DNA from: Candidatus Bipolaricaulota bacterium | GTDB lineage: Bacteria; Bipolaricaulota; Bipolaricaulia; RBG-16-55-9; DRXL01 | Length of the DNA stretch: 64,000 bases | Assembly (NCBI GenBank): GCA_025060395.1 | Contig: JANXCC010000003.1 | Location: 1-64,000 of the forward strand | Direction of reading: 5' to 3' | Part shown: positions 43,413 to 46,406 of the stretch, piece by piece | How positions within the stretch are numbered: the stretch's first letter is position 1 | Layout of the letters: each line of letters starts with the position of its first letter | Program-made: the position numbers and the translations under genes | Notes under the pieces: generated by a model | What the model was told of the DNA's origin: nothing | Databases searched by the model: none | Seen by the model: the letters and a program-made list of their open reading frames with translations, nothing else

Positions 43413-44492
43413 TTAAATCTTCTGAATGCTCTCAAAGGGTAAGTCGACGCGCGTCTCGCGCCCAAAGATCTTGACGACCACCGTGGCGATCTCGCGCTCC
43501 TTGTCGAGCTCGACAATGGCACCGGTGAAATCCGCAAATGGCCCCTCGATGATCTCCACAACCTCGCCGACTTCAAATTCAACCTCGATCTTGGGGCCGA
43601 CGGCCTTGGGCGCCTCGAGCAACCCCGCCCGACGCTTGACAACTTTCATCTCTTCTTCGCTCAAGGGCAAAGGGGGATTGCCCACAAAGCGACATTTGAT
43701 CCCTTCCGTCAACCGCAGGACCTCCTGGTCCATCTCCATAAAGGCGAAGATATACCCAGGGAAGAGCCGACGCTTCTCAATATACTGCACGGCCACGACC
43801 CGCTTGTCCTTGTACTCTTTAATCTTGACGAGCCCTGAGGCCCGAGACTCGATCCTATCTTCTTTCTCGATCATGTCTCCTTGCTTGAGCGTGACCCCTT
43901 CCTTGAGCCGAACAAGATACTTCTCCGGAACAAGCAGGGTCACGGTCTCCCCGGTGTCTAACCTCTCTAAGTGCACCCGCTTGACACGGTCACGCTGGAC
44001 TACAGTAGTCTTCACGGCGGGAGCGCGAAAGTTGGGATCGGAATCTGTCGTCAAGGGCACCCCCGGCGGGAGCTTCTCCCCTGTGCGAATATCGCGTCGA
44101 ATCCGTTTCTCCAGAGGGATAAGAAACTCCTCTTCATTGCGATTGCTCATCTCCACGATGACTCGTTGGAGTGTCTCGATCTTCTTGACCTTGGCATCGA
44201 AGTTCATGTATTTGGCCGGCTTGACGGCGATGAGCTCGCCCTTCTGAATGCGCTTGTTTGCCTCGACCTTCAGTTCGTATTCGTAGGGGATGCGATACTC
44301 CCCGGTGCGCCCGCGCCGCGCCTTGGAAGTGATGACCTCCTCGACAGGCGCGAGGAAGCGCACCTCCTTCCCATTGATCTCAAAGGCCGCGACCTTCTTC
44401 TCCAGCCCCAGCTGGCGCACCCGCTGCTCCAAGAGCTCTGCCACCTTCAGTTCGCTGCCCGCGTAGGTCTGGATTGCATACCACCGTTTCAT
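43413..44492 (-). CDS. nusG: Transcription factor NusG with a large internal insertion
   Basis: NusG links RNA polymerase to Rho and the ribosome. The NGN domain begins with KRWYAIQTYAGSELKVAELL and resumes at KRRLFPGYIFAFMEM (about residue 240); the KOW domain is FEVGEVVEIIEGPFADFTGA (about 305-335). About 185 extra residues (roughly 52-238) interrupt the NGN domain, giving 359 residues where about 180 is usual. Thermotoga NusG (about 353 residues) has a comparable insertion. Genes secE and rplK flank it in the usual order. Confidence 0.93.
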   Translation of the reverse strand: MKRWYAIQTYAGSELKVAELLEQRVRQLGLEKKVAAFEINGKEVRFLAPVEEVITSKARRGRTGEYRIPYEYELKVEANKRIQKGELIAVKPAKYMNFDAKVKKIETLQRVIVEMSNRNEEEFLIPLEKRIRRDIRTGEKLPPGVPLTTDSDPNFRAPAVKTTVVQRDRVKRVHLERLDTGETVTLLVPEKYLVRLKEGVTLKQGDMIEKEDRIESRASGLVKIKEYKDKRVVAVQYIEKRRLFPGYIFAFMEMDQEVLRLTEGIKCRFVGNPPLPLSEEEMKVVKRRAGLLEAPKAVGPKIEVEFEVGEVVEIIEGPFADFTGAIVELDKEREIATVVVKIFGRETRVDLPFESIQKI

Positions 44493-44952: not shown

Positions 44953-46161
44953 TTACGCCAAGATCTTCGTCACGACTCCGGCCCCCACCGTGCGCCCACC
45001 CTCGCGGATGGCAAAGCGCAACTGCTCCTCCATTGCAATATGGCTGATCAGCTCCGCTGTAATGTGCACGTTATCCCCAGGCATGACCATCTCCACCCCT
45101 GGCGGCAACGTCACCACCCCGGTCACGTCGGTGGTGCGGAAGTAGAACTGCGGCTTATACCCGGAGAAGAAGGGGGTATGGCGCCCACCCTCATCCTTGC
45201 TGAGGGCGTAGACCTCAGCCTCAAACTTCGTGTGCGGCGTGATCGAGCCGGGAGCAGCCAAGACCATGCCGCGCTCCACTTCGTCTTTTTCAATGCCGCG
45301 CAACAAGACCCCAATGTTGTCCCCCGGCAGAGCCTCATCGAGCACTTTGTTGAACATCTCGATACTTGTGGCCACGGTCTTGCGCGATTCAGGCCGCAAT
45401 CCGACGATCTCGACCTCCTGCCCCGGGACGAGGCGCCCGCGCTCGACGCGCCCCGTTACGACCGTGCCACGCCCCTTAATCGAGAAGACGTCCTCAATCG
45501 ACATCAAGAACGGCTTGTCCACATCGCGCACCGGCTCCGGGATATACTCATCGATGGCCTTCATGAGCTCCCAGATGCACTTAGTTGCTTCAGGATCAGT
45601 CGGGTTCTTATACGCGGCTAAGGCCGACCCGCGGATGACCGGTGCGGTATCGCCAGGGAACTTATATTTGTTGAGCAGATCGCGGATCTCGACCTCAACG
45701 AGATCGATCAGCTCTGGATCATCGACCAGATCGATCTTATTCAGAAAGACCACAATATAGGGGACGTTGACCTGGCGCGCCAGCAGGACGTGCTCGCGGG
45801 TTTGGGGCATGGGGCCTTCGGTAGCGTCCACGACGAGAATAGCGCCATCCATCTGGGCCGCGCCCGTGATCATGTTCTTGACGTAATCGGCATGGCCCGG
45901 ACAGTCGATGTGGGCGTAGTGGCGCTTCTCGGTCTCATACTCGACGTGCGCGATCGCGATCGTGAGGATCTTCGTGGGGTCGCGGCGCCCCTGCTTCTCG
46001 CTGGCTTTGGCGACCTCATCGTAAGTACGCGCCTTGGCCAACCCCTTCTGGGCCAAGACCTCGGTGATGGCCGCGGTCAGGGTCGTCTTGCCGTGGTCGA
46101 TGTGCCCGATGGTACCAACGTTGACATGCGGCTTCTTCCGCTCAAACTTTGGTTTCGCCAT
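44953..46161 (-). CDS. tuf: Elongation factor Tu with atypical switch I
   Basis: EF-Tu delivers aminoacyl-tRNA to the ribosome. G1 [10 protein letters not shown]3 DCPGH and G4 NKID are intact, and domains 2 and 3 look normal ([45 protein letters not shown]). Switch I (residues 55-75) reads [20 protein letters not shown], where nearly all EF-Tu have EEKARGITINxxHVE. The conserved Thr of G2 remains, but the RG-I context is replaced and about five residues are added. ATG 46161 has GAGGAGG; 402 residues. Confidence 0.95.
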
Positions 46162-46177
46162 ATATCCTCCTCTGAGA

Positions 46178-46241
46178 GTATTGCTGTGCTGACGTGCCGA
46201 AGTGCTGCGTCGGCTGCAGCACAGCAATACGGCAGCACTTC
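46178..46241 (-). repeat. Interleaved inverted repeats in the tuf leader
   Basis: GTATTGCTGTGCTG (46178-46191) is the perfect reverse complement of CAGCACAGCAATAC (46217-46230). A second perfect pair, GAAGTGCTGC (46199-46208) and GCAGCACTTC (46232-46241), interlocks with the first. The two hairpins therefore exclude each other or form a pseudoknot-like fold. They lie between tRNA-Thr and the tuf ribosome binding site, so control or processing of the transcript is possible. Confidence 0.6.
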
Positions 46242-46252
46242 TGCACTCTCAC

Positions 46253-46326
46253 GAGCCCGCGACCGGAATCGAACCGGTGACCTTTCCCTTACCAAGGGAA
46301 CGCTCTACCCCTGAGCTACGCGGGCT
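46253..46326 (-). tRNA. tRNA-Thr (GGT)
   Basis: The reverse strand has acceptor AGCCCGC/GCGGGCT, D-arm TAGCTCAGGGGTAGAGC, anticodon stem TTCCC/GGGAA with loop TTGGTAA (GGT), and T-arm CCGGTTCGATTCCGG. CCA is not encoded. It corresponds to thrT before tufB in E. coli. Confidence 0.92.
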
Positions 46327-46373
46327 AGAGAACACCTCCCTATCCCAGGGAAGGTCTGCACTATGAATACGGT

Positions 46374-46402
46374 ATTATAGACCAAAGTGCTCACAAACGC
46401 AA
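46374..46402 (-). promoter_or_regulatory. Promoter for tRNA-Thr(GGT)-tuf
   Basis: The minus strand has TTGCGT (46402-46397), 17 bases, TATAAT (46379-46374). It lies between tRNA-Tyr and tRNA-Thr(GGT), so tuf can be transcribed apart from the first two tRNAs. Confidence 0.6.
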
Positions 46403-46406
46403 GGGG

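Follow-up and report, generated by a model that had tools for sequence, protein, structure and literature searches.

An inverted array of degenerate octamers between tRNA-Thr and tuf in Candidatus Bipolaricaulota and its relation to IVP-type repeats

The IVS of 23S rRNA are hairpin elements associated with the operons of stable RNAs, and some known IVS contain no ORF. The IVS of Coxiella is described as a hairpin with an S23p ORF that is excised by RNase III, and the same source gives no known function for the IVP (S23p) proteins associated with fragmented 23S rRNA (PMC4990558). IVP resembles Avd, a relative that, according to PMC10053308, serves diversity-generating retroelements. RNase III is also connected with protein-coding transcripts: PMC5371410 calls tufB of E. 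coli a known site of this enzyme and names rnc, pnp and metY as cuts in 5'-UTRs. At the E. coli sites tufB and metY-nusA-infB the hairpin lies between a tRNA gene and the mRNA of a translation factor. Other intergenic elements to be considered are the REP/BIME-type repeats, which are short, dispersed and palindromic, and the TAACTGA heptamer repeats of Beggiatoaceae, reported as intergenic arrays of a short unit, some of them in translation-gene operons (PMC4679880).

The locus described here shares features with each of these systems. As in E. coli, which is a distant precedent, a tRNA gene is followed by a hairpin and then by the mRNA of a translation factor; here, however, the hairpin is a member of a repeat family with units of 8 nt, it has two exclusive folds and its cleavage is predicted. 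Compared with the 23S rRNA IVS, it is placed in a tRNA-Thr/tuf spacer outside the 23S rRNA, it has no ORF (91 nt) and its arms are arrays of short units, although in a relative a PF05635 gene lies between arms that belong to its family. Its family differs from the REP/BIME repeats in its few copies, its octamer arrays and, in that relative, its preference for RNA genes. The TAACTGA repeats, as reported, are almost all direct, with one fixed unit, and stand upstream of start codons, whereas the octamer family forms inverted arrays.

The window, that is, the whole stretch of 64,000 nt analysed, belongs to a genome (G000) whose genus relatives are titled Candidatus Bipolaricaulota. On its minus strand the order is tRNA-Thr(TGT), tRNA-Tyr, tRNA-Thr(GGT), a leader of 91 nt (46162-46252), tuf, tRNA-Trp and nusG. 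The spacer between tRNA-Tyr and tRNA-Thr (46326-46403) holds a promoter-like site on this strand, with TTGCGT at 46402-46397, a gap of 17 nt and TATAAT at 46379-46374. Because both hexamers are identical in the five genus loci, tuf is probably co-transcribed with tRNA-Thr from this site as one RNA. The 5' neighbour of the hairpin is tRNA-Thr(GGT) (46253-46325, minus strand), in which CCA is not encoded (CGT instead); four genus relatives encode CCA. The tuf gene (EF-Tu; 44953-46161, minus strand) has its likely ATG start at 46161, and the ORF list gives it as 44953-46227, from an upstream TTG. Its Shine-Dalgarno sequence AGGAGG is at 46166-46171, minus strand, and GAGGAGGA at this place is invariant in the genus alignment. 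As a minor observation on the same region, the NusG-like ORF at 43413-44492 codes for 359 aa, and the usual length of NusG is about half of that.

Two perfect inverted repeats of 14 and 10 pairs, interlocked in the order B-A-B'-A' between tRNA-Thr and tuf, had been proposed in the first-pass annotation, and its coordinates, pair numbers and order all proved correct. The repeat A:A' (46178-46191/46217-46230) pairs in 14 of 14 positions (100%). B:B' contains the perfect core of 10 pairs (46199-46208/46232-46241) and is longer than had been noted, with 14 of 15 positions paired over 15 nt (46194-46208/46232-46246). On the transcribed minus strand the arms follow as B (46246-46232), A (46230-46217), B' (46208-46194) and A' (46191-46178), and the last of them stops 6 nt before AGGAGG (46171-46166), near the tuf ribosome binding site as had been claimed. 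It had also been said that one fold only could form, or both in a pseudoknot. The two folds are mutually exclusive, but a pseudoknot is implausible and was rejected from the sequence, since the linkers that would cross helices of 14-15 bp measure 1 nt (46231) and 2 nt (46193-46192). When the leader (91 nt) was shuffled 20,000 times with its dinucleotides preserved, an inverted repeat of at least 14 appeared once, in a shuffle that was also interlocked; interlocked repeats of 10+10 were found in none of 5,000 shuffles. The fold of the G000 leader has a z of -2.9.

The interlocked order is that of an attenuator, and an attenuator had indeed been suggested for this leader; here it is taken as a terminator/antiterminator pair acting on transcription. 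Nevertheless, a U-tract follows neither B' nor A', terminator prediction gave no call for the leader on the minus strand, and no reading frame is kept through it, the lengths in the five genus loci being 91, 94, 90, 91 and 80. No riboswitch or ribosomal-protein leader of Rfam 15 was found at the gathering score, the matches in the window being four tRNAs only. The suggestion is therefore not supported; it was rejected on the absent U-tract and the lack of a kept leader frame, and we regard it as very improbable.

The element is built from degenerate 8-nt units (GTGCTGCN) set out as an inverted array. Written in eights, the leader reads AGTGCAGA AGTGCTGC CGTATTGC TGTGCTGC / GCAGCACTT CGGCACGT CAGCACAG CAATAC, and these octamers are degenerate copies of NGTGCTGC and its complement. 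On the minus strand, arm B corresponds to units L1-L2, arm A to L3-L4, arm B' to R1-R2 and arm A' to R3-R4. Over 14 related sequences the self-match reaches 0.48 for a lag of 8 and 0.44 for a lag of 16; the remaining lags between 4 and 15 give 0.13-0.35. In blocks of 16 nt the left arm is X-Y and the right arm X'-Y', whereas a simple hairpin would need Y'-X'; thus, the interlock arises because the right arm carries its blocks in permuted order. Three of the 11 other full members of the family are also interlocked (perfect helices of at least 8), with shorter helices, so that the tuf site holds the longest interlocked pair of the family.

Related to the distribution of this family (family 1), a blastn search of the own genome gave one copy at E<=0.001. 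At C77:33813 the covariance model R1, built partly from copies that it then recovers, finds a further, weak copy (E 0.001), with counterparts before the same secreted-protein gene in G002, G004 and G005. A mobile repeat in many copies, which the first-pass annotation had named as the finding that would reduce the element to a simple repeat, is thus rejected for the own genome (one strong copy by blastn, one weak by R1). Dispersed copies are more numerous in a relative, G006, of the same family and another genus, which has 12 R1 loci at E<=0.01, and 13 with the arms around an IVP gene. In this census the locus C35:4002-4069 (E 0.06) was dropped, being by eye a palindrome of another kind. Nine of the 13 loci have a tRNA or rRNA gene no more than 100 nt away: they lie between the tRNAs Asp/Phe, Arg/Leu, Cys/Val, Arg/His and Lys/Glu, after tRNA-Pro, between tRNA-Gln and rnc, between 23S and 5S, and in tRNA-Ile-IVP-tRNA-Ala. 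The four others (C100, C130, C160 and C85:40849) have no such gene beside them. This preference has a binomial p of 1e-12 to 4e-11, given an assumed intergenic share of 8-12%, and the count is biased by the IVP-arm locus, added by hand after it turned up in a region retrieved for its tRNA genes; without it the proportion is 8/12. R1 also matched, weakly, the tRNA-Gln/rnc hairpins of two g3 genomes, G007 (E 0.007) and G009 (E 0.056), which were excluded from the family, and in nine genomes of the order outside the family R1 has zero matches at E<=0.5. The Y1 transposase PF01797, expected where a REP element goes with a RAYT, has no match in G000 and none in seven of the other nine family genomes; G006 has three, so that an element of this type is conceivable there.

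A second hairpin repeat, GTCTGGAC...GTCCAGAC, unrelated to the octamers, was observed in G000 at C44:99402-99469, C86:29757-29820, C22:58861-58920 and C4:32769-32820. It fills the tRNA spacers Asp/Phe and Arg/Leu of G000, the same spacers that the octamer family occupies in G006, and its matches number 9 in G000, 23-57 in each of the other genus genomes and 0 in G006.

The leader is present in five of the six genus genomes and strongly conserved, so that the other doubt of the first-pass annotation, a lack of conservation, is unfounded; no match was found in G003, which is 61% complete, and its absence there may reflect incompleteness. In the four undeleted leaders (4 species) 1 of 58 arm columns is variable, compared with 22 of the 38 others (Fisher p 1.5e-10), and this single change leads to a G-U pair. 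The leader of G001, with a deletion of 11 nt and helices that are shortened and overlapping (13 and 10 pairs), was omitted from the column count, the alignment and the pair count. With gaps counted, the mean identity is 82% for the leader, 41% and 58% for two neighbouring tRNA spacers and 66% (49-86%) for the sister copy before the secreted-protein gene; for tuf, sequence pairs with at least 180 fourfold sites agree at 54-72% of them. Because the leader is better kept than the tRNA spacers and the sister copy, and its arms are nearly invariant, these comparisons indicate that selection is acting on the tuf copy. They bear on the view of the leader as a selfish or neutral relic, an empty derivative of an IVP-type repeat without any role at tuf. 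Such a relic would fit the copies dispersed in G006, the presence of the tuf-leader unit in the arms around the IVP gene of that genome and the drift of the genus's second copy, but not the better conservation of the tuf copy, nor one variable arm column in 58, which is not expected from neutral drift. By conservation this view is disfavoured, and we judge it distinctly unlikely.

The conservation is not accompanied by covariation. Comparison of the relatives gave no double changes in 28 pairs of the genus leaders and none in 12 pairs among 12 family members, and with zero compensatory changes covariation does not prove the pairing. A possible reason for the invariance of the arms is that the core GTGCTG/CAGCAC is able to pair with several partners. 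Outside the genus the structure is not general either: among the 25 loci where tRNA-Thr adjoins tuf, the leader has a z below -2 in two, which means that no hairpin is required at this junction, and a phylum-wide tuf leader hairpin was rejected on that basis. The tuf leader of G007, from another genus, has a hairpin of its own with 7-nt units (CACTGRC-like, by eye) and a z of -2.8; the array at this site may be an independent one.

The main rival of the reading favoured below is a two-state regulatory leader, with B:B' and A:A' as alternative folds. The expression of tuf would be set by them through mRNA stability or through the binding of a factor such as EF-Tu. In the first of these routes the 5' end left after removal of the tRNA would be 4-6 nt from the stem in B:B' and would be longer and free in A:A'. 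Autoregulation had already been suggested for this leader, and several data agree with it: both helices are kept in the four undeleted leaders, their arms are nearly invariant and form the longest interlocked pair of the family, and the forced-fold energies of A and B differ by 1.1-3.3 kcal/mol in all five leaders, A being lower in four and B in one. Besides, prefixes of the G000 leader fold as B at 60-74 nt and as A from 76, and its ensemble at 37 C is mixed (B 0.22, A 0.69). On the other hand, the interlock is a consequence of the repeated units and is seen in 3/11 other full elements, the leader helices show no covariation, and the Shine-Dalgarno sequence is not paired away in either fold. 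The fold preferred at 37 C varies with the species (A 0.997 in G005, B 0.980 in G004), and at 65 C A prevails in four of the five leaders. A two-state switch is for these reasons considered possible, though doubtful.

The favoured reading is a processing hairpin: the leader would be a domesticated, ORF-less, IVS-like repeat hairpin that acts as a double-stranded processing site separating tRNA-Thr from the tuf mRNA, a proposal held with middling confidence. Of the three readings suggested initially, release of tRNA-Thr is the best supported, from the places of the family in tRNA and rRNA spacers, and the cleavage itself is predicted. One copy of family 1 would have been fixed between tRNA-Thr and tuf in this genus, and the tRNA-Thr-tuf RNA, starting at the putative promoter of the Tyr/Thr spacer, would fold the array into a hairpin. 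B:B' would pair first because B' leaves the polymerase before A', with a possible later rearrangement to A:A', and in either fold a stem of 14 pairs would stand between the tRNA and the mRNA. Cutting of this stem by RNase III would then release the pre-tRNA and may set or protect the 5' end of the tuf mRNA.

RNase III is encoded in nine of the ten family genomes, the own genome included, where TIGR02191 is over its cut-off at G000:C11:241106-241750. One family-1 copy of G006 lies between tRNA-Gln and rnc, the gene of RNase III itself, and diverged hairpins occupy the same place in G001, G002, G004, G007 and G009 and, by eye, in G005. This hairpin is absent in G000, where tRNA-Gln and rnc have no spacer between them and the CCA end of the tRNA shares its A with the start codon of rnc (CCATG; L119 563-590, G000:C11). 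RNase III prefers about 20 pairs, and against processing it must be said that the stems of 14-15 pairs are short for this enzyme. Furthermore, a site processed by pairing alone should accumulate compensatory changes, and their number, 0 in 28 pairs, points to some sequence-specific constraint.

The link with IVP genes comes from the tRNA-Ile/tRNA-Ala spacer of G006, where octamer arms of family 1 surround an ORF matching PF05635 (23S_rRNA_IVP) with an E of 3.5e-32. The same spacer of G005 also contains an IVP ORF, flanked by arms built from a different unit; in G004 units of 9 nt accompany an IVP ORF that is not near tRNA genes. PF05635 has no match in the own genome. Of 100 genomes from the phylum, 49 have an IVP match, and 31 IVP loci were chosen by score from more than 100 matches listed, with near relatives among them (L185/L190, L174/L186). 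When the upstream flank is compared with the reverse complement of the downstream one, the mean score is 23.2 within a locus and 11.0 across loci, and 17 of the 31 loci beat all 30 cross pairs; L164, L165 and L184 plainly fail this comparison and have no convincing arms. These scores indicate that the unit is common to both arms of a locus and differs between loci. A flank score of at least 18 was obtained in 24/31 loci, and in 15/723 control windows of the same size elsewhere in those loci. The mean self-match of the flanks peaks at lags 7, 9 and 14. The IVP genes of the phylum thus lie, for the most part, between inverted arrays of short units, an arrangement of which no description was found in the open PMC literature.

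A wider view, which is tentative and more probably wrong than right, is that one widespread class of element comprises the PF05635 genes (IVP, Avd-like) together with inverted arrays whose degenerate units are 7-9 nt long. Its ORF-less derivatives would settle and replace one another in stable-RNA spacers and tRNA/mRNA junctions, and one of them would have been domesticated here as a two-state leader coupling the release of tRNA-Thr to the expression of EF-Tu. IVP genes between inverted arrays, together with ORF-less arrays that prefer the tRNA and rRNA spacers of G006, offer a testable view of IVP at the level of the element. At the tuf site a repeat hairpin seems to have been recruited and frozen before a gene that is usually among the most highly expressed in bacteria. 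This setting tells more than the interlock does: a hairpin of an IVP-type repeat, drawn in a relative to stable-RNA spacers, appears frozen before tuf in this genus. Finally, the gene starts that directly follow the IVP loci L169, L171, L174, L176, L180, L184, L186 and L191 look alike (IPILDL... or NFAVIMAGGQGERLWPL, read by eye in the flanks), as would be the case with a shared insertion site.
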